Below are positions 4,613-17,605 of a stretch of 41,412 nt of DNA, piece by piece. The stretch is from positions 1 to 41,412 of the forward strand of contig JAIPFF010000051.1 of NCBI GenBank assembly GCA_021736785.1, in the 5' to 3' direction. The first letter of the stretch is position 1. Every line of letters begins with the position of its first letter. The translations under genes were made by a program, and so were the position numbers. The DNA is from Thiohalocapsa sp. (GTDB lineage Bacteria; Pseudomonadota; Gammaproteobacteria; Chromatiales; Chromatiaceae). Below the pieces are notes generated by a model. It was not told the origin of the DNA, did no database searches, and saw only the letters and a list, made by a program, of their open reading frames with translations.

Positions 4613-4831
4613 GGTCGCTGCGTCCGCGCCGCCGCGTGGTCCATGCAGATCGCTGGAGCATGGCGGGAAAACGCGCTATTCTGAGCCGTTTCCTGTTTGC
4701 ACACGGTGGTTTAGGGCGGTCGGGCCGGGCCGATGGGTAATTCCCGTCCGCCGGAGTCCGGACAACCTGGCCGGCGTCCCCCGGGCCGAACGCCGAAGGG
4801 ACGCCCCGCCGGCAGTCGCCGCCACGACGAC
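4613..4831 (+). promoter_or_regulatory. Leader between the cso block and cbbR
   Basis: No convincing gene in these 219 nt. A TATTCT hexamer (4677-4682) is a possible -10 box without a good -35. GGCGTCCC (4773-4780) and GGGACGCC (4798-4805) form a perfect 8-bp inverted repeat upstream of the preferred cbbR start, a possible operator or leader hairpin. An in-frame ATG at 4733 would make part of this region coding. Confidence 0.3.
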
Positions 4832-5854
4832 ATGGCCGACACAAGCGAAGGGCGCGCCGCCTCACCTGGCGGCGGCGCCGACTATCTCATCAGGCACACC
4901 ACGCTGCGCCAGCTGCAATTGCTGGAGGCCATCGTTCGGCTCGGCAGCTTCACCCGCGCCGCCGAAGAGCTGTTCCTCACGCAGCCGACGGTGTCGATGC
5001 AGATCAAGAAGTTGTCCGAAGCGATCGGCGCGCCGCTGTTCCGCCAGGTCGGGCGCGCGGTCGAGCCCACCGATGCGGGACGCGAGGTGCACGCCGCCTG
5101 CCGCGAAATTCTCTCCACGCTCTCGAACCTCGAGATCAAGCTGGCCGACTTGAAGGGCCTTCGGCGCGGCCGGCTGCGGCTTGGCGTGCTGACCACCGCG
5201 AAGTACGTCGCGCCGGAAATTCTGGGTGCCTTCTGTCAGCGCTATCCCGGGATCGACGTGTCTCTGAAGGTCACCAACCGCGAGAGCATCATCGAGCGCC
5301 TGACCGGCCACGACGACGACCTCTACGTCATGGGCCAGCCGAAGGAGCCGACCGACCAGATCGAGTCGATTCCGTTCGCCCCGAATCCGCTGGTGATGGT
5401 CGCGCGCAGCGATCATCCTCTGGCGAAGGAGCGCAACATTCCGATCAAGGCCCTGGCCGATGAAAATCTGATCCTGCGCGAGCCCGGCTCCGGCATCCGC
5501 GATGCCGTGCTGCGGCACTTCGCCGCGGCCGGCTTGCAGCCGCGCGTGCGGATGCAATTGGGCAGCAACGAGGCCATCAAGCACGCCATCGTCGGCGGGC
5601 TCGGCATCTCGGCGCTGTCGCTGCACTCTTTGACCCTGGAGAGCGCCGGCGGGCGGCTCGCTCTGCTCGATGTGGAAGGTTTTCCGATCGTGCGCCGCTG
5701 GCATCTGGTGCATTGGCGCGGGCGCGAGCTGTCTTTGATTGCCCGCACCTTCCTGGAGTTCGCCATCGAATACGAGCCGGAAATCCACGCCCGGCTGGCC
5801 GAGGCCCAAGCCGCTTTCGACCGCTACAGAGACAGCCTTCAAACCCCGGGCTGA
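4832..5854 (+). CDS. cbbR: LysR-family regulator, CbbR-like
   Basis: A LysR-type transcription factor of 340 residues. The N-terminal winged HTH is at about 24-66 (LRQLQLLEAIVRLGSFTRAA, then TQPTVSMQIKKL), followed by a substrate-sensing domain with RGRLRLGVLTTAKYVAPEIL. The closest family match from memory is CbbR, the activator of Calvin-cycle and carboxysome genes, and its position next to the cso block supports this. CbbR genes are usually divergent from cbbL; here it lies downstream on the same strand. The ATG at 4832 is preferred because the in-frame ATG at 4733 adds 33 Pro/Arg/Gly-rich residues not expected in the family. No Shine-Dalgarno sequence supports either start. Confidence 0.85.
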   Translation: MADTSEGRAASPGGGADYLIRHTTLRQLQLLEAIVRLGSFTRAAEELFLTQPTVSMQIKKLSEAIGAPLFRQVGRAVEPTDAGREVHAACREILSTLSNLEIKLADLKGLRRGRLRLGVLTTAKYVAPEILGAFCQRYPGIDVSLKVTNRESIIERLTGHDDDLYVMGQPKEPTDQIESIPFAPNPLVMVARSDHPLAKERNIPIKALADENLILREPGSGIRDAVLRHFAAAGLQPRVRMQLGSNEAIKHAIVGGLGISALSLHSLTLESAGGRLALLDVEGFPIVRRWHLVHWRGRELSLIARTFLEFAIEYEPEIHARLAEAQAAFDRYRDSLQTPG

Positions 5855-8670: not shown

Positions 8671-8757
8671 TCAGGCTGCCGCGGTCTCGAGCGCGGCCAG
8701 CGCCGGATAGCGCTCCACGTCGCCGGTGATGGCGCGGATCGCGAAGCGCGCGAACAT
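8671..8757 (-). pseudogene. crtA: Severed C-terminal segment of crtA
   Basis: In the same minus-strand frame as crtA, directly after the TAG at 8758-8760, 28 sense codons follow: MFARFAIRAITG, then DVERYPALAALETAAA and a TGA at 8671-8673. In CrtA proteins the conserved SEELFARF segment spans this junction (here SE-stop-MFARF). With the TAG read as an amino acid the protein would be 237 residues, close to the known family length of about 240. This segment therefore looks like genuine crtA coding sequence cut off by a nonsense codon. Confidence 0.7.
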
Positions 8758-9384
8758 CTACTCGGACAGCCAGTGTTCCTTGCGGGCCGCGATGGACGCC
8801 TCGTGGTGCGGCGTATGCCGATAGGCGAACTCGCGCATATGGTCCACGTCGGTCCAGATGCTGAACGTGGCCGGCGTGCGCAGCGGATGCTCGCCGAAGC
8901 CGATATGGTAGGCGCAGCCCGGCGCGTCGCGCAGATGGCGGCGAATCGCCGGCACGCTGCGCCAAAAGTCGCGCGTGTGTCCGCTATTGACGCGGGCGTG
9001 GGTGAGCACGGCAAAGGGCCGGTCGCCGGGCTTCTCGCGGGAGTAGTCGAACAGCGCGTCGCCGTCCCAGGTGCCGTGGCCGGACATGGGCTCGAGCTCG
9101 AAATGCAACTGCTCGATACTGGGCCCGGCCACCCATCGGTAGAGCCGGGTACGCCGCAGGGCCGGCATCTCGCGGGGGTCGTCGAGCGCGCTCATCAGGC
9201 AATAGGCGCGCAGATCCGGCACGATCGAAAAGCCTTCGCTGCCGCCGCATCCCATCAGGCGCACGATCCCGGCCGGCATGCCTTTACCGATGAACAGGCC
9301 CTGAAAGCCCATCCTGACGAAGGCGCCGAAGACGTGTCCGGGCGGATAACGGAAGAAGCTGAAGACGACGTGCTTCCTGAGCAT
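8758..9384 (-). CDS. crtA: CrtA-type spheroidene monooxygenase, truncated by in-frame TAG
   Basis: A 208-residue homologue of CrtA, the carotenoid oxygenase that adds C-2 keto groups to acyclic carotenoids such as spheroidene and spirilloxanthin in purple bacteria. Family features are a start into FSFFRYPPGHVFGAFVRMGFQG, then GCGGSEGFSIVPD and the C-terminal PATFSIWTDVDHMREFAYRH. It is divergent from crtI-crtB, which supports the assignment. The frame stops at a TAG inside the conserved SE-(E)-LFARF segment, and homologous sequence continues beyond it (see 8671-8757). Either the gene carries a nonsense mutation, or the amber codon is suppressed, or there is a base error. The truncated protein may not be functional. 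Confidence 0.8.
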   Translation of the reverse strand: MLRKHVVFSFFRYPPGHVFGAFVRMGFQGLFIGKGMPAGIVRLMGCGGSEGFSIVPDLRAYCLMSALDDPREMPALRRTRLYRWVAGPSIEQLHFELEPMSGHGTWDGDALFDYSREKPGDRPFAVLTHARVNSGHTRDFWRSVPAIRRHLRDAPGCAYHIGFGEHPLRTPATFSIWTDVDHMREFAYRHTPHHEASIAARKEHWLSE

Positions 9385-9556: not shown

Positions 9557-9579
9557 TATACTGTCAAACATTCTTGACA
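9557..9579 (+). promoter_or_regulatory. crtI promoter with PpsR/CrtJ-type operator
   Basis: TATACT (9557-9562) is a good -10 hexamer, placing transcription start near 9568-9570. Overlapping it is TGTCAA-N6-TTGACA (9562-9579), which fits exactly the TGT-N12-ACA palindrome bound by PpsR/CrtJ, the aerobic repressors of photopigment genes in purple bacteria. Extra TTGACA half-sites lie at 9490-9495 and 9590-9595. No good -35 is present. The motif is seen directly; binding by a PpsR/CrtJ homologue is inferred. Confidence 0.6.
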
Positions 9580-9598
9580 TTTGAATTGGTTGACACTT

Positions 9599-11143
9599 GT
9601 GACTAGCGTTCCCCCGCGCTCTCCGGAGCACCTCGCCGGCACCTTGGCGACCGGCCCGAAATCCCACGCCGTCGTCATCGGCAGCGGCTTCGGCGGACTG
9701 GCGGCGGCGATTCGGCTCGGCTACCGCGGCTACCGCGTTACCGTGCTCGAGAAGCTCGATAAGCCCGGCGGGCGGGCCTACGTTCACGAGATCGACGGTT
9801 ACAAGTTCGACGCCGGCCCCACCATCATCACCGCGCCGTTCTTGCTGGAGGAGCTGTGGGAGATGTGCGGGCGGCGATTCGCCGACGACATCGACCTGGT
9901 CGCGATGGACCCCTTCTACCGCATCCGCTTCGACAGCGGCGAGACCTTCGACACCAACGGCGATGCAGACGCCATGCGCGCCCAAGTCGCCCGCTTCTCG
10001 CCCGGCGACGTGGCCGGTTACGACCGTTTCATCGAGGCCAGCAAGAAGATTTTTCAGGTGGGCTTTCAGGAGCTCGGCCATGTGCCGTTCACGCAATGGC
10101 AGGACATGGCCCGCATCGTGCCCAAGATGGTGGCGCTGCAGAGCTATCGCAGCGTCTACGCCATGGTCTCGAGCTACGTCAAGGACGAGCGCCTTCGTGT
10201 CGCGCTGAGCTTTCATCCGCTGCTGATCGGCGGCAATCCGTTCTCGGTCACCTCCATCTATACGCTGATCTCCTATCTGGAGCGCCACTGGGGCGTGCAT
10301 TCGGCGATGGGCGGAACCGGGGCCATCGTGCAGGGCCTGGTGAGCCTGATCGAGGGCCAGGGCAATACGGTGCGCATGAACGCCGAGGTTGCGGAGATCA
10401 CCGTCGATGACGGCAAGGCGACCGGCGTGCGACTCGCCGACGGCGAGCATATCCCGGCCCATGTGGTGGTCTCCAATGCCGATGTGGCCTGGACCTATCG
10501 CAACTTGCTGCCCGGTATCGAGCGCAAGCACTGGACCGACGAAAAGCTCGACAAAGCGCGCTATTCCAACGGGTTGTTCGTTTGGTACTTCGGGACCAAA
10601 CGGCAGTATCCGGACGTCAAGCACCACACCATTCTGCTGGGACCCCGCTACAAGGGCCTGCTCAAAGACATCTTCGACCGCAAGCATTTGGCGGACGATT
10701 TCAGCCTTTACCTGCATCGCCCGACCGCGACCGATCCGTCGCTCGCGCCCGCCGGCTGCGATACCTTCTACGTGCTCGCCCCGGTACCGCACTTGGACGG
10801 CGATGTGGACTGGGCGGTCAAGGCCGAGCAATATCGAAGCGCCATCTCGGCCTATCTGGCCGATACCGTGCTTCCAGATCTGGAAAACCAGATCACGGCG
10901 TCGCTCGTGACCACTCCCAAGGACTTCGAGCAGCGCCTACTATCCTTCAAGGGCGCGGGCTTCAGTCTGGAGCCGGTCTTGCTGCAGAGCGCCTGGTTCC
11001 GTCCCCACAACAAGAGCGAAGAGGTCGAGTATCTCTACATGGTCGGCGCCGGCACCCACCCCGGGGCGGGTGTGCCGGGCGTTATCTCCACAGCACGAGT
11101 CCTCGATACGGTGGTCCCAGATGCCTCTGTTTTTACAACGTGA
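9599..11143 (+). CDS. crtI: Phytoene desaturase CrtI
   Basis: An FAD-dependent carotenoid desaturase that converts phytoene stepwise to neurosporene or lycopene at the membrane. The N-terminal dinucleotide fold GSGFGG (28-33) with LEKLDKPGGRAY, and the C-terminal FAD segment YMVGAGTHPGAGVPGV, are diagnostic; the length of 514 residues is typical. The GTG at 9599 is chosen because the alternative TTG at 9581 would sit almost on the operator and only 12 nt from the predicted transcription start. The final 23 nt overlap crtB, so the two are translationally linked. The number of desaturation steps cannot be told from sequence. Confidence 0.94.
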   Translation: MTSVPPRSPEHLAGTLATGPKSHAVVIGSGFGGLAAAIRLGYRGYRVTVLEKLDKPGGRAYVHEIDGYKFDAGPTIITAPFLLEELWEMCGRRFADDIDLVAMDPFYRIRFDSGETFDTNGDADAMRAQVARFSPGDVAGYDRFIEASKKIFQVGFQELGHVPFTQWQDMARIVPKMVALQSYRSVYAMVSSYVKDERLRVALSFHPLLIGGNPFSVTSIYTLISYLERHWGVHSAMGGTGAIVQGLVSLIEGQGNTVRMNAEVAEITVDDGKATGVRLADGEHIPAHVVVSNADVAWTYRNLLPGIERKHWTDEKLDKARYSNGLFVWYFGTKRQYPDVKHHTILLGPRYKGLLKDIFDRKHLADDFSLYLHRPTATDPSLAPAGCDTFYVLAPVPHLDGDVDWAVKAEQYRSAISAYLADTVLPDLENQITASLVTTPKDFEQRLLSFKGAGFSLEPVLLQSAWFRPHNKSEEVEYLYMVGAGTHPGAGVPGVISTARVLDTVVPDASVFTT

Positions 11144-12176
11144 GCGTTGTTTCGCCGACCCGGCGGATCTCGCTGCCTGTCGCGAGCTGCTGAGCAACGG
11201 CTCGCGCTCTTTTTACGCCGCTTCTTTCTTTCTGCCCAAGTCGCTGAGTCAGCCCGCCTCGGCACTGTACGCATTCTGCCGCATCGCGGACGATGCGATC
11301 GACCTCGAGGCGGACCGCGACGCCGCGCTCGCGAGCCTGCGCGAGCGCCTCGAGCGCGTCTATAACGGCGACCCGATGCCCTATGCCGTCGATCGTGCCT
11401 TCGCCGGTGCGGTCGAGCGCTTCCATATGCCGCGCGAGCTGCCGGAGGCGTTGCTGGAAGGGTTTGAATGGGACGCCCAGGGCCGGGTCTACGAGGACAT
11501 GTCCGACGTCTACGACTACTGCGCCCGCGTCGCCGCCGCGGTCGGCGCGATGATGTCGTCGCTGATGGGCGTGCGCTCTCCACATGTGCTGGCGCGGGCC
11601 TGCGACCTGGGCTCGGCGATGCAGCTGACCAACATCTGCCGCGACGTCGGCGAGGATGCCCGCAACGGGCGCATCTACTTGCCGCTGAACTGGCTGCGCG
11701 AAGCCGGTATCGACCCCGAGGCCTTTTTGGCCAAGCCGGTCTTCAGCGAGGCGCTGGGCTCGGTGGTGCAGCGCGTGCTCGATGTCGCCGCGGATCTCTA
11801 TCGCCGCTCCGAGTCCGGGATCGCGAGGCTGCCGGTGGGCTGCCGGCCGGGTATCTATGCCGCTCGGCTGCTGTACGCCGAAATCGGCCAAGAAGTCGCG
11901 CGCAACGGCTATGATTCAGTATCGCGACGGGCAGTCGTGCCGGCGGCGCGCAAGGTCGCGCTGCTGAGCCAGGCGCTCGCCGTGACGCCCTTCCCGGGCG
12001 GACGCTGCAAGGCGCCTCCGCTGGACGAGAACCGGTTTCTGGTGGATGCCGTCGCCGCCGCGCCGCTGATGCCCGGCGAGGCCATGCGCAACCGTGGTCT
12101 CGAGGAGAAGGTCGTCTGGGTCTTGGATCTGTTCGAAACCCTGGAGCAGCGTGACCGGCTCGCCGCGACCCGGTGA
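11121..12176 (+). CDS. crtB: Phytoene synthase CrtB
   Basis: Condenses two geranylgeranyl diphosphates to phytoene, the first committed step of carotenoid synthesis. The 351-residue trans-isoprenyl synthase fold shows both Asp-rich Mg-diphosphate motifs: DDAID (57-61) and NICRDVGEDARNGRIYLP. The ATG at 11121 starts inside the last codons of crtI; the longer open frame from 11070 runs through crtI sequence and is rejected. A C-terminal extension after PVGCRPGIYAARLLY (VVPAARKVALLSQ and following) is usual in proteobacterial CrtB. Confidence 0.95.
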   Translation: MPLFLQRERCFADPADLAACRELLSNGSRSFYAASFFLPKSLSQPASALYAFCRIADDAIDLEADRDAALASLRERLERVYNGDPMPYAVDRAFAGAVERFHMPRELPEALLEGFEWDAQGRVYEDMSDVYDYCARVAAAVGAMMSSLMGVRSPHVLARACDLGSAMQLTNICRDVGEDARNGRIYLPLNWLREAGIDPEAFLAKPVFSEALGSVVQRVLDVAADLYRRSESGIARLPVGCRPGIYAARLLYAEIGQEVARNGYDSVSRRAVVPAARKVALLSQALAVTPFPGGRCKAPPLDENRFLVDAVAAAPLMPGEAMRNRGLEEKVVWVLDLFETLEQRDRLAATR

Positions 12177-12214: not shown

Positions 12215-12568
12215 ATGCGCTACTACCTCGGTGCAATCTGCCTACTGTGGGGAGTCTGGCTGATCTATCGGGCGATTGCCCACCGCAAGCTGGTGATCGC
12301 CGCGCGCGAGCGTGCGGCCTCCGCCGGCACCGAGCAGCAGATCGATCCGGGTCTGGCGGCAATGGGGACCGCGATGCTGCCGTTCTTCGCGCTCTACGGC
12401 GGCTTCGCGTCGCTGCTGCTGATCGGTGGCTACTTCCTGTCCGACCTCTCTGCCTACGTGTCCATTCTCGATCTCGCCGGGCTGCTGGTGCTCGTCGCCG
12501 GTTATAGCCTGTGGATGATCATGCGCGCCGCCTACAGTAAGCTCGGGCTCGATATGTCGAGCGCCTAG
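12215..12568 (+). CDS. Small membrane protein downstream of crtB
   Basis: An unrecognised 117-residue protein with three hydrophobic segments: residues 3-20 (YYLGAICLLWGVWLIYRA), about 50-75 (AMLPFFALYGGFASLLLIGGYF) and about 82-103 (LDLAGLLVLVAGYSLWMIM). A short charged loop follows the first. A GGAG site lies 8 nt before the ATG, and the gene begins 38 nt after crtB with no terminator between, so it is probably cotranscribed with crtI-crtB. A role with carotenoids is only suggested by position. Confidence 0.7.
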   Translation: MRYYLGAICLLWGVWLIYRAIAHRKLVIAARERAASAGTEQQIDPGLAAMGTAMLPFFALYGGFASLLLIGGYFLSDLSAYVSILDLAGLLVLVAGYSLWMIMRAAYSKLGLDMSSA

Positions 12569-12699: not shown

Positions 12700-15600
12700 T
12701 CATTCCTGCGTCTCCTGCGTCTCCTGCGTCTGCGCGTCGCTGCTCGTGACCGGGTTATCGGCGCGGAAACGATAGGCCTCGCCGATCAGGGCGAGGCGGG
12801 CGCGGTCCGGACCCCAGCGCTCGGCGAGGTCTTGCGCAAGGTCGTGGTCTTCGGCCCAGATACGCCAAAGCACGGCGGCGTTCTCCCAGTAGGCGCCGGC
12901 GATATAGTGGCCGTCGGGACTGAAGTCCGCGGTTGCGACGCCGCCGAGGTCGGCCCGCAGCGGCAGAAAGGCGCTCGGCCGCGCCGGCGGCGTCCCCGAC
13001 GTCTGCGGCCGCGGCGTTTGCCAGACGCGGATGGTCCCGTCGCGAGATGCCGTCAGCATCCACCGCCCGTCGCCCGGACTGAATGCCGCCCGGTAGATGC
13101 GATCCTGATGCCCCAGCAGAACCGCCTGCGGATTACCGTCCAGATCCCAGACGCGCGCGGACTTGTCCAGAGACGCCGTCAGTACTTGCCGCGCGTCCGG
13201 TGACAAGGCGATGCTGTAGACGCGCCCGCTGTGCCCCTCCAAGTAGGCGCGCACACTGCACGGCCCGTCGGCGGTGACCTCGACGACGGCGGCTCTGTTC
13301 TGGTCGCCCGCGGCGCCGATCAATCTCCCGTCGGCCGAGATGTCGACATCGACGATGGGGCCGATCCCCACCTCCAAGACGCATGCCTGCCGCCAGGCGC
13401 CGGCGGCATCCGCGCGAAGCACCCGCAAAGTGCCGTTTTCGTCTCCGGTCACCACGGCCGCGGCGCCGGCGCCCAGATCGCCCACCGCGGCGGCCTCGAC
13501 CGCGGCACCGCCGTGGGCTAGTGCCGCACCGGCGTCGATCGGTGCGCAGCGACTCGGCGAGAACACCCGGACCGGGCGCCGGGTGTCGTTGGAGGTGGTC
13601 ACGAGCCAATCGGCATCGGGGCCGAACAGGGCATTGTATACCTGATTGCCGCCGTCGCTGCCGGCGAGCTGCAGCTCGCAGTGGGAGCCCGAGATCAATC
13701 CGTTGACGTTGACCCGGCCGTCGTAGCCCGCGGAAGCCAGCAGTTCGCCCGATGCGGAGAAGCGGACTTGGCGCACTCGCGCGTCGTGCTGGCGAAACTC
13801 CGTCAGCGGCTCCGGCACCGGCTTGTCGGCCGAGCGCTCGTAACGCCATACGCGCACGCCGCCGTCGAAGCCGGCGGTCGCGAGCAGCAGTGCGTCGCCG
13901 TCGGGTGCGACCGGGTCCGGTGCGGCCGTCGTGTCCAGGTCCCAGACGTGATCCGGGTGCGCCAGCTTGAATCCCAGGCGCGAGACAGGATCGACGCTCC
14001 ACAGCCGCACCGAGCCATCGCGCTCGGAGAAGGTGAGCACGCGCCCGCCGTTGCGGCTGAAGCGCGCCGTGCTCACGGCCCCGTCATGGCCGAGCACAGC
14101 GGCCTGCTTGCCGGTCTCCAGGCCCCAGAGCCGGGCTGTACGATCCAGCGATGCGGTCAGCACCAAGTGCTCGTCGGACAGGCCGGGGTGGTCGCCGGGG
14201 CCGATCGCCACCTGACCGACGCTGAGGGAATGGTTACCGAGCACCACCGCTTGTCGGTCGCCGTCCAGCGACCACCGCACCACCTGTCCCTCGTCGTCGA
14301 CGGCGACCAGAAAATCTCCCCCGGGTGCGAACGCGACGTCGCGCACCGCGGTGCGATGGATCTTGAAGCTGCGCCCGCCGATTTTGCTCTCGGCGAGAGC
14401 CGCGATCGGGGTGCCGTCGCCGCGATAGAGGCGCACGCGCTCGTCGACCGCGGCAATGGCGATGTGCTCGCCGGCGGCATCGAAGACGGCGTTGTTGAAC
14501 GGACGCCCCAGCGGACCATCCGAAGGCAGCGAGAAGCGGATCGCGGATCGCTGCAGGTCGATCGCATGCGTTCGGCCCGCCGCCGACGCGCTCAGCAGGA
14601 CGGTGCTGTCGGGCGAAAAGGATAGCCCCCGGATTTCGCCCTCGCGCAGTTCCAAATCGAGCAGGACGCGGCCCGGCAGTGCCAAATCGACCACGCAAAC
14701 GCTCTGCCGGTCGCCGCCGAGGTCGCGCGCCACCGCCAGCAGGCGGCGCTCTGGATCGAGCGCGTAGACCGCCCCCGGCGCGCTCCCGCACGGATACAGC
14801 GCGGGCGCATCGTCGGCAGCGGGCAGGCGCCAAATGCCGTCGCGGCCGATGCCGAAGACCTGATCGTCATCGCCGATGATCAGCGTGTGCAGTCCGAGCG
14901 CGTCGCCGTCGAGCTCATGCTCGAGCGCGAAGCGCCCTCTTGCCAAGCGCCACAGCACGGGGCCGCGCGTCGCGTCGATGGTGGCGAGCAGGGAGCCGTC
15001 GGCGCTGAAGCCCGGCCGGTAGGGCTGGTCGGGCGCCGGCCCGCGGGTGTGCTCCATCGCCAGCAGCCGGTTGCTGCTGAACGCGTTGCTCAGTGTCTGC
15101 ACGGCCTGTTGCGGCAGATCGCGGCCTGCATCGATTGCGTTGGCCACCGCCTGCGGCGTATTCCCCCGCGCGATGAAAATGTCCGCCTCCTTGAGCTTGC
15201 TGCGGTGCAGGTTGATCCGCGCCTCCTGCGAGGCGTTCAGCGCGAGCCAGGCGGCAATGGTGGCCGCGGCGAGCAGCGAGAGCAGAATCAGCCCCGTGAG
15301 ACGTACCAGCCGGTTGCGCCGGCGAACGAAGCGAAGATTGGCCGCGGACTGCTCCAGGAACTCCCGCTCCAGATCCTCCAACTCGTCGCCCGCGGCCTCC
15401 ATGAGGTCGAGCGCTTGGGCGTAGCCGACCTCGCGGTAGAGATACTCGCGGTTGCAATCGGTGCGTTTCCACAGCTGGGCTTGGCGCGTGAGCTGAGAGC
15501 GCAGCTGCAGCAGACGCCGGTTCTCGGGCTGCGCCACCCACTCGCTGACCGGCTGCCAGCGCTCGATCAGGATCGGGTGAATGAAGCCGGCCACCGGTTG

Positions 15601-17568
15601 AAATTCCCGCCAGTCGAGGTCGGCCTCGTCTGCGGGGGAAGGCGGCTCGGCGTTTGCCGGCGCCGCCGACTTCGGATCAGTCGTATTCGCGGACGCCGAG
15701 CGAGGGCCGCGCAGGATCCGCAGGCGCAGTAAGCGGGCTTGCCACTCGTCTCGCCCTTGCCGCCACAAGCCTCGCAGCAGATCCGAGAGCCGGTGCTGCG
15801 GCGCTTCGCAGGTCTTCAGCAGCGAGGGATCGCGAATACCTTCGGCGACCACCAGCCGGGCCTCGATGAGCCGCTCCACCAGCGCCTCGCAGGCCGGATC
15901 CCCGCGCAGCACGCGCAGGTCGCCGTTGCGGGGCACGAGCTTGGAAGTGCCTCCGTCGGTGCCCACCAAGGCGCGGCACAGGCGCGGCAGGGCCGCGCGC
16001 TGCTCGCTCGATAGCTGTTCCCAAAGCTCGCCGGCCCGCCGCAGCACGTGGCCGCTGATGCCGCCGACAGCACGGTAGTGCTCGACGGTCAGCCTGATCT
16101 CATCGTGCTGGCGGTGCTTGTCGGCTGCCTCGGCGAACGCGGCATCGAGCACGCCTTGCACTGCCGGCGGCCAGAGTCGCAGCGCGCCGGCTTCGGCTTC
16201 GATCTCGGCGACGATGCCGTGCGCACCCTCTCCCTCGCCCGTATCCAGCTCGATGCCGGCCACGCGCGCCGGGATCTCGACCACTTGCCGGATGCGTGCT
16301 GGCGCCGGCGGCGGCAGCTCGCGCCAAGTGTCGTGGTCGAGCATCTCGCGCAGTGCCGGTATCCCCGCAAGCCGATACAGGGCGTCGCCGCGGACGGCCG
16401 CGATGACCCAGATGGCGTCGTTGGCCGCAAGGCCCTGCAATGCCCGCGCGAAGCCGTCGACGACGGCAGCCTCCCGCCCTTCCAACAGCCGATCCAGCGG
16501 ATCGACAATGATCGCGAGCCGCGCCTGCGCATCGCTCTCGTTGGCCTGGGCCACCAATGCGAGCGCACTCGCGAGCTGGCGAGCCGCCACCCGCGGGTCC
16601 GCGGCGAGCAGGCGCTCGAGCTCGTCGGGGCCGAGGCCGAAGCGCGCCAGCGCGTCGCCGAGGACATCGCCGGCGCACAGGCGCGCCGCCAGCACCTCGA
16701 GCGGAGCCGGGCCGCCGGTATCCGGCTCCACCAGGGCGCAGCGCACCGTGGCAATGTGCTCGAAAAGGAACGGACGCGTCAGCCGCGGAACCAACCCGGC
16801 TCGAAGCAGCGAGGTCTTACCGCTGCCGCTCGCTCCGCTCAGCAGCAGAAAGCCGCGGTGCCTGCCGTCGGTGTTTTCCATGCGCGCGAGCAAATCGCGA
16901 ATCTCGCCCTCGCGGCCGGTGAACACGCGCTCGTCGCCGATCTCGAACGGGCGCTCCGCGCGGAACGGACTGCCGTGCCACTGCAGCGCCCCGGCGGTGG
17001 CGCGGCGCTCCGCGCTGATCCGCCGGTTGAGCAATTTGCGCAGTTGCACCTCCAACAGCTCGCGGAATGCGGCATCGTTGTCGAAGGTACGGAAGGCACG
17101 CTTGAAGGTATTGTCTTCGTTGAAGAAGTGGCTGCGGAAGAATTCGCTGAGCCGGCGCTGGTCCTCGACGGCCTCGCGGGCGGAAGCGGTGTCGGTGATG
17201 TCGACGAGCTTCGGCGCGCTCTTCTTATAGACCAGCACCTCGGGCGTGCCCGTATGCGTCGACGCCTCGACCGCATTGACGAACTCCCACTCGGTGCCCG
17301 TCATGCCTCGATAAGGCTCCTCGGGCAGCGGCGAGCCGAGCCGGGTCCAGACGATCACCAGCACGATCTCGCATTCCGCGGGCTGGGTGAGGCCGGCCTG
17401 GAAGGTCCGGTCGGCGGTCAGCGCCTCTTCTTCCCACAGAATCGCCTGCAGTGTGAAGTAAGGCAGATATTCGGCGGCCAAACGCTCCACAATGTCCTTG
17501 ACCGCCGAGCGCTCGCGTTCCACGTCGGAGGGGGACGAGACAAAGATTCGAACCCGGTCGTCGCTCAT
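12700..17568 (-). CDS. DUF4062-STAND NTPase-transmembrane-WD40 protein
   Basis: A 1622-residue multidomain protein. Residues 4-115 resemble DUF4062 (RVRIFVSSPSDVERERSAV), a domain common at the N-terminus of signalling or conflict NTPases. Residues about 215-500 are an nSTAND-type NTPase: FTGREGEIRDLL, P-loop GASGSGKT (245-252), Walker B-like IIVDPLDRLLEG near D356. One strongly hydrophobic helix lies at 757-777. From about 815 to 1590 there are some 14-15 WD40-like blades (TASLDRTARLWGLETG, TASLDKSARVWDLDG, TASRDGTIRVWQTP), enough for two propellers. STAND proteins couple ligand sensing to oligomerisation; this one appears membrane-anchored. The ATG at 17568 starts the DUF4062 core; an upstream GTG at 17601 adds 11 residues. 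The ligand and output are unknown. Confidence 0.85.
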   Translation of the reverse strand: MSDDRVRIFVSSPSDVERERSAVKDIVERLAAEYLPYFTLQAILWEEEALTADRTFQAGLTQPAECEIVLVIVWTRLGSPLPEEPYRGMTGTEWEFVNAVEASTHTGTPEVLVYKKSAPKLVDITDTASAREAVEDQRRLSEFFRSHFFNEDNTFKRAFRTFDNDAAFRELLEVQLRKLLNRRISAERRATAGALQWHGSPFRAERPFEIGDERVFTGREGEIRDLLARMENTDGRHRGFLLLSGASGSGKTSLLRAGLVPRLTRPFLFEHIATVRCALVEPDTGGPAPLEVLAARLCAGDVLGDALARFGLGPDELERLLAADPRVAARQLASALALVAQANESDAQARLAIIVDPLDRLLEGREAAVVDGFARALQGLAANDAIWVIAAVRGDALYRLAGIPALREMLDHDTWRELPPPAPARIRQVVEIPARVAGIELDTGEGEGAHGIVAEIEAEAGALRLWPPAVQGVLDAAFAEAADKHRQHDEIRLTVEHYRAVGGISGHVLRRAGELWEQLSSEQRAALPRLCRALVGTDGGTSKLVPRNGDLRVLRGDPACEALVERLIEARLVVAEGIRDPSLLKTCEAPQHRLSDLLRGLWRQGRDEWQARLLRLRILRGPRSASANTTDPKSAAPANAEPPSPADEADLDWREFQPVAGFIHPILIERWQPVSEWVAQPENRRLLQLRSQLTRQAQLWKRTDCNREYLYREVGYAQALDLMEAAGDELEDLEREFLEQSAANLRFVRRRNRLVRLTGLILLSLLAAATIAAWLALNASQEARINLHRSKLKEADIFIARGNTPQAVANAIDAGRDLPQQAVQTLSNAFSSNRLLAMEHTRGPAPDQPYRPGFSADGSLLATIDATRGPVLWRLARGRFALEHELDGDALGLHTLIIGDDDQVFGIGRDGIWRLPAADDAPALYPCGSAPGAVYALDPERRLLAVARDLGGDRQSVCVVDLALPGRVLLDLELREGEIRGLSFSPDSTVLLSASAAGRTHAIDLQRSAIRFSLPSDGPLGRPFNNAVFDAAGEHIAIAAVDERVRLYRGDGTPIAALAESKIGGRSFKIHRTAVRDVAFAPGGDFLVAVDDEGQVVRWSLDGDRQAVVLGNHSLSVGQVAIGPGDHPGLSDEHLVLTASLDRTARLWGLETGKQAAVLGHDGAVSTARFSRNGGRVLTFSERDGSVRLWSVDPVSRLGFKLAHPDHVWDLDTTAAPDPVAPDGDALLLATAGFDGGVRVWRYERSADKPVPEPLTEFRQHDARVRQVRFSASGELLASAGYDGRVNVNGLISGSHCELQLAGSDGGNQVYNALFGPDADWLVTTSNDTRRPVRVFSPSRCAPIDAGAALAHGGAAVEAAAVGDLGAGAAAVVTGDENGTLRVLRADAAGAWRQACVLEVGIGPIVDVDISADGRLIGAAGDQNRAAVVEVTADGPCSVRAYLEGHSGRVYSIALSPDARQVLTASLDKSARVWDLDGNPQAVLLGHQDRIYRAAFSPGDGRWMLTASRDGTIRVWQTPRPQTSGTPPARPSAFLPLRADLGGVATADFSPDGHYIAGAYWENAAVLWRIWAEDHDLAQDLAERWGPDRARLALIGEAYRFRADNPVTSSDAQTQETQETQE
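12704..12730 (-). repeat. Three 9-bp tandem repeats at the STAND gene 3' end
   Basis: TCCTGCGTC occurs three times in a row (plus-strand reading), encoding the TQE-TQE-TQE C-terminus of the STAND protein. Slippage here would change tail length without breaking the frame. Confidence 0.7.
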
Positions 17569-17572
17569 CGAA

Positions 17573-17605
17573 ACTATACGGTCGCTGTAGGCAGCCCCCA
17601 CTATA
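17573..17605 (-). promoter_or_regulatory. Possible promoter(s) of the STAND gene
   Basis: On the minus strand TATAGT occurs at 17600-17605 and again at 17573-17578. The first would start transcription about 25 nt before the ATG. The second ends only 4 nt before the ATG and would give an essentially leaderless mRNA. No Shine-Dalgarno sequence or clear -35 box is seen. Confidence 0.35.

Follow-up and report, generated by a model that had tools for sequence, protein, structure and literature searches.

An in-frame amber codon near the 3′ end of a crtA-like carotenoid gene in Thiohalocapsa sp.

A crtA-like gene of the purple sulfur bacterium Thiohalocapsa sp. is interrupted by an in-frame TAG close to its 3′ end, in the single assembly from which the sequence was read. 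The question raised by this locus is whether the TAG marks the natural loss of an enzyme, a codon that is still translated, a shorter natural end of the protein, or an error in the assembly. The window analyzed here is the whole stretch of 41,412 nucleotides of contig JAIPFF010000051.1 in which the gene lies. The locus is best explained, and probably correctly, by a recent natural nonsense mutation through which one accessory enzyme of carotenoid oxygenation is lost.

The interrupted frame and the codon at position 209

The crtA-like gene lies on the minus strand, starts with an ATG at 9384, and is closed by the TAG after 208 codons (Table 1). The same frame continues past the TAG for 28 sense codons (MFARFAIRAITGDVERYPALAALETAAA) to a TGA and contains no second stop and no frameshift. 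The coordinates given in the earlier note for the stop, the continuation, and the TGA were exact, and its read-through length of 237 codons is correct (208 + 1 + 28).

Table 1. Features of the crtA-like locus and the adjoining carotenoid genes, in window coordinates.
Feature	Position	Strand	Evidence or remark
crtA-like ORF as it stands	8758..9384	-	208 codons to TAG; NF045923 128 bits, E 3.3e-37
In-frame amber TAG, codon 209	8758..8760	-	Ser in 15/15 Chromatiaceae rows (TCG 12, TCA 3)
28 post-amber codons, CrtA C-terminus	8674..8757	-	Rest of last predicted beta strand (to 221) and terminal helix
TGA closing the full-length crtA frame	8671..8673	-	Read from the sequence
Codon 171, CCG (Pro)	8872..8874	-	Leu in 15/15 Chromatiaceae rows, Gln in 12/12 distant rows
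TGTCN10GACA palindrome	9562..9579	+	In the crtA-crtI gap; fits the CrtJ/PpsR recognition sequence TGTN12ACA
crtI-family phytoene desaturase, intact	9581..11143	+	TIGR02734, 631.9 bits; divergent from crtA
crtB phytoene synthase, intact	11070..12176	+	PF00494, 248.5 bits; NF045921, 417.5 bits (below cut-off 500)
Small ORF after crtIB	12215..12568	+	Kept in 7/7 relatives examined, 64-75% identity

The 28 post-stop residues were searched alone against 210 genomes at E ≤ 10, and matches were found in 40 genomes, own genome counted. E-values below 0.01 were obtained in 10 other Chromatiaceae genomes, always within crtA, and in all 10 this match is free of stops and begins exactly 3 bases after the 208-residue match ends, on the same contig. 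Because the tail alone matches crtA after a gap of a single codon, the post-stop frame is the true C-terminus of crtA. In the remaining 29 genomes the matches were weak, with best E-values of 0.0175 to 1.88, and are presumably mostly due to chance; one of them (G031, E 0.18) is crtA again, also at a distance of 3 bases. Outside the 40 are three genomes that carry crtA (G091, G094, and G096), and their C-terminal tails have diverged. The match of a genome-wide search with the profile NF045923 spans one TAG in crtA.

The aligned Chromatiaceae rows, 15 in number with 14 distinct coding sequences (L008 and L055 are identical), comprise 14 out of the 210 genomes and one from a separate contig scan. 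The earlier note had held that the stop replaces a conserved residue in a conserved C-terminus, which is borne out: the column is serine throughout these rows. Its proposal that this residue was Glu, lost by a single GAG-to-TAG change, is ruled out by the same column. The codon before the stop is Glu in all 15 rows, and its GAG is intact in the window. The motif SEELFARF, which had been expected at the stop, describes the distant homologues in kind (E in 9 of 12 rows; D, S, and A in one each), but not the gene's own family. The ten distant rows with E or D belong to a single family of the same phylum, outside this class, and they are the rows that score above the NF045923 cut-off. The amber would most simply have arisen from TCG by one C-to-A change. 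The parent codon TCG rests on the majority of rows because the genus-mate that carries crtA (G004) has TCA at this column, from which TAG would need two changes.

An alignment had been proposed as a check for CrtA homologues that end at this point, and none was found among 27 rows (0 of 15 Chromatiaceae and 0 of 12 more distant rows). A nonsense pseudogene is marked by a premature stop beyond which intact homologues go on in frame, a pattern that crtA shows, and by an inactive product, which the predicted fold makes likely here.

A structure model of the read-through protein was built from alignment A1 (15 sequences) with the TAG read as Ser, and it reached a mean pLDDT of 86.9 and a pTM of 0.86. 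The last predicted beta strand covers residues 206-221 and lies in blocks whose mean pLDDT is 93-94; a helix follows at 227-236. The stop at 209 falls inside this strand, and 29 residues are lost from the product. The positions invariant in A1 beyond the stop are S209, F211, R213, G221, and P227, S209 of the own row being Ser by construction. Since the stop takes away the terminal helix and most of the last strand, the protein is likely, according to the model, to lose its fold or its activity. One alternative is that the 208-residue protein is active and that the TAG is its shorter natural end. This agrees with the retention of most of the family-conserved sequence and with the varying tail length among relatives, but such a protein would lack the invariant A1 positions as well as the greater part of the last predicted strand, and its end would be shared with none of the 27 homologue rows, so that it is considered very unlikely.

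Family, neighborhood, and distribution of the gene

NF045923 is the spheroidene monooxygenase equivalog profile, with a curated cut-off of 300 bits. The gene scores 143.6 bits when read through, and both this value and the score of the 208 residues (Table 1) lie outside the equivalog; three intact Chromatiaceae relatives are likewise under 300 (138, 157, and 167 bits). The read-through gene covers profile positions 4-221 of 226, all 15 members of A1 match the profile, and this near-full-length match places the gene in the wider CrtA superfamily. A Pfam search with the 208 residues returned no family, and PDB sequence searches returned insignificant matches only (E 0.75 and 0.78). PMC10604819 ascribes to the CrtA superfamily an O2-dependent ketolation at C-2 that involves a 5-coordinate heme. 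CrtA-OH, a flavobacterial CrtA homologue, is described in PMC11855829 as a carotenoid 2-hydroxylase that hydroxylates C-2 of the psi end and does not form a keto group there. The earlier note had suggested a loss of carotenoid ketolation. The recent loss of an oxygenation step is the plainest reading of the truncated conserved C-terminus, but "ketolation" says more than the family assignment does, because the score is far below 300 bits and a hydroxyl is described as the product of the related CrtA-OH (PMC11855829).

The neighboring crtI and crtB are transcribed away from crtA. The true start of crtI is probably slightly downstream of the called one, and the called start of crtB is probably too far upstream. 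The small ORF after crtB gave no family match in profile searches. The crtI locus was fetched from 7 genus relatives, in which crtI, crtB, and the small ORF are conserved, and no crtA was found genome-wide in these seven. A stop flagged on crtI of one relative (G007) was discarded, as it stands before the gene start. The palindrome TGTCN10GACA between crtA and crtI occurs once in the window against 0.29 expected, and at least one copy occurs in 27 of 100 shuffles. The looser TGTN12ACA occurs 8 times against 2.2 expected. Because it recurs 7 times outside the crtA-crtI gap, the palindrome is suggestive only as a candidate CrtJ/PpsR site.

Reaction-centre genes were found in all 10 genus genomes searched. 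Contig C35 of the own genome carries pufLM, pufC, bchC, bchX, bchY, bchZ, a crtE-like gene, and an intact crtD, which is whole by profile NF045637 (693.5 bits). No internal stop was found in the genes for release factor 1, pufL, pufM, and crtI of this genome; crtD, bchC, bchX, bchY, and bchZ cover the length of their profiles, and crtB is open over its profile length. A second candidate amber in the pathway, a TAG at C35 3059-3061 in the crtD-like region, was rejected, as it precedes the GTG start of a 505-codon ORF.

Other genes of the window are as follows. On the plus strand, a carboxysome shell carbonic anhydrase (TIGR02701, 653.5 bits) is encoded at 70-1668, and downstream of it, at 4733-5854, is a LysR regulator that is nearest to CbbR and below the cut-off of the CbbR model. 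On the minus strand, 12703-17601 encodes a 1633-residue protein with DUF4062, an nSTAND1 NTPase, and WD40 repeats, the architecture of STAND proteins that act in signalling or defence.

The own genome contains a single crtA match. The gene was found in 2 of the 10 genus genomes and in 17 of the 210 genomes, own included in both counts, and this patchy presence identifies crtA as an accessory gene. The 17 include a fragment (G152) and a weak match that failed direct comparison (G182). In the contig scan, crtA was confirmed in 2 of 47 stretches, one of which (L007) corresponds to the G004 contig and was counted only once. The alignments do not contain L007 (same as L004), L064 (the fragment), L065 (the weak G182 match), or L090 (a second weak match of G566), and L055, with the coding sequence of L008, was left out of A1 and the codon analysis.

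The crtA of G004 follows genes for a PAS/Fis-type regulator, a UbiA-family protein, and an FAD-oxidoreductase, which may be ppsR, bchG, and bchP. In G152, which belongs to another genus, crtA breaks off after about 79 codons (L064, C1:571885-572100), and no significant trace of the rest was found within the fetched 1.5 kb; this is another natural loss of the gene. Five of the 10 genus genomes (G001, G003, G005, G007, and G009) carry a tandem pair of CrtI-family paralogues and no crtA, and no such pair was seen in the two genus genomes with crtA. G002, G006, and G008 have neither the pair nor crtA. Judged by the gene order described in PMC10604819, the pair may possibly be cruS-cruO of the okenone pathway.

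The CrtA-like sequences of Chromatiaceae form a clade of 16 rows with an SH-aLRT of 100 in a quick midpoint-rooted tree that carries a long-branch warning. The clade includes L003-L006, L008, and L054-L063, and among its members is Thiocapsa marina 5811. No report of such a clade in purple sulfur bacteria was found in the open-access literature, judged by titles and abstract openings, and this clade is a more useful by-product of the analysis than the stop itself.

Age of the stop and competing explanations

The selection history of the gene was estimated with a codon model of 15 rows and 233 codons in which the stop codon was masked. Omega was 0.117 on the own branch against 0.126 in the background (LRT 0.05, p 0.83), and the own branch departed from neutrality (LRT 20.0, p 7.6e-6). 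A two-phase fit, in which the other parameters kept their values, favored a neutral share of 0 for the own branch, and 1.2 log units were lost at a 5% neutral share and 2.4 at 10%. These estimates indicate that crtA has been under normal constraint for nearly all of its own branch. The branch is long, with the nearest row being 63% identical. Because selection looks normal and the branch is long, the stop is recent only relative to the branch.

Decay of the 3′ end was considered and rejected. The mean ratio of identity after the stop to identity before it was 0.91 in the 15 own pairs and 0.83 in 72 other pairs picked for an upstream identity of 0.50-0.67, a comparison over 22 columns that has little power. 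The 26 post-stop codons gave a log-likelihood gain of only 0.40, which alone cannot separate read-through from recency. Pro-171 stands at the start of a predicted strand (171-177), and it is possible that it is a second lesion that arose before or after the stop. Including the stop, the own row has 2 specific changes at otherwise invariant columns; because the other rows show 0 to 4 such changes, Pro-171 alone is no proof of decay. Apart from the stop, the gene still has the appearance of one that worked until recently, so that crtA can be regarded as a young pseudogene.

The same appearance would be expected if the TAG were a base-call or assembly error and crtA were whole in the organism. 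Such an error is the main rival explanation. It fits the ordinary omega, the lack of any other stop or frameshift, and the dependence of the TAG on one assembly, but the conserved genes looked at elsewhere in the genome show no interruption, and a stop-making substitution is a rare sort of assembly error. On balance, an error is unlikely.

The earlier note had also considered a recoded or suppressed amber and had proposed a search of the genome for an amber suppressor tRNA; the search found none, and the evidence went against this possibility. The release factor 1 gene, prfA, is uninterrupted (528.8 bits against a cut-off of 423). Transfer RNA genes were located at 44 places by RF00005 (E ≤ 0.1) and as 43 distinct tRNAs by ARAGORN, with no CTA anticodon among the 43, a list that is incomplete because tRNA-Trp, tRNA-Ile(GAT), and tRNA-Ala(TGC) are absent from it. 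A CTA pattern scan, in a form that fits all 43 found tRNAs with their own anticodons, gave 6 places in the genome against 13 for a reversed control, and none of them is a CTA tRNA: three coincide with ordinary tRNAs but in a different register, and at the other three ARAGORN finds no tRNA. A suppressor tRNA is therefore considered unlikely on the RF00005 and ARAGORN searches, with their incomplete tRNA list, together with the pattern scan. A read-through element was also rejected, as RNA structure downstream of the stop does not exceed that of shuffled sequences (z 0.65). In addition, one RF00005 place above the cut-off has no ARAGORN call (L050, C53:9091-9151). It has the form of the 3′ part of a tRNA with a loop read by eye as CCT, perhaps an integration-site remnant related to the full tRNA-Arg(CCT) gene on contig C48.

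The conserved frame and residues after the stop and the normal selection along the own branch would suit an amber that is read through or suppressed so that some full-length CrtA-like enzyme is made. Against this stand the intact release factor, the absence of a CTA anticodon from the incomplete tRNA list, the ordinary downstream RNA, and the absence of a stop at this column in all 15 relatives, so that read-through is highly improbable. A form of it in which the amber is leaky, by design or by chance, so that few ribosomes pass it and a little full-length C-2 oxygenase keeps the post-stop frame under selection, has only a very faint chance of being right.

The preferred reading, a recent nonsense mutation, can be put as a series of steps. 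A single C-to-A change would have turned the Ser-209 codon TCG, as judged from the relatives, into TAG. Release factor 1 would terminate at this codon and yield a 208-residue protein without most of the last strand and the terminal helix, which is most likely inactive. Carotenoids would be made without the C-2 oxygen group expected from the enzyme family, and the steps that make and desaturate phytoene would stay whole, as would the photosynthesis genes that were sampled. The stop in crtA would be an ordinary event, an accessory gene caught early in decay. The predicted visible trait is that the carotenoids of this one strain lack a C-2 oxygen group in comparison with relatives that have a whole crtA.

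Comparison with known systems

The predicted fold resembles other proteins at a distance, with identities of 7-13% over the 50 Foldseek rows listed. Among these rows, the aldoxime dehydratases OxdB and OxdRE have the highest query-length TM-scores (0.55-0.59) at 9-12% identity to the CrtA-like query, a likeness in fold only. ABM-type or putative monooxygenases have the lowest E-values among the same rows, again a likeness in fold only, and they fit poorly onto the query (TM 0.33-0.40 for the first nine, rmsd about 16).

Spheroidene monooxygenase CrtA is of the same family by sequence over nearly the whole length of the window gene, with 29-33% identity between this gene and the 10 rows above the cut-off. 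In contrast, the window gene scores under 300 bits and is interrupted by TAG, and its activity can be only predicted from sequence. In Rhodobacter capsulatus, according to PMC5362033, the CrtJ recognition sequence TGTN12ACA is present in the promoters of crtAI and other photosystem genes, and a sequence of this form likewise lies between crtA and crtI in the window. The likeness to the flavobacterial CrtA-OH is taken from its description and concerns another host and pathway. The closest parallel to the locus as a whole is found in ordinary bacterial nonsense pseudogenes, in which a single early stop likewise breaks an accessory gene that is conserved apart from it, and from which crtA shows no essential difference.
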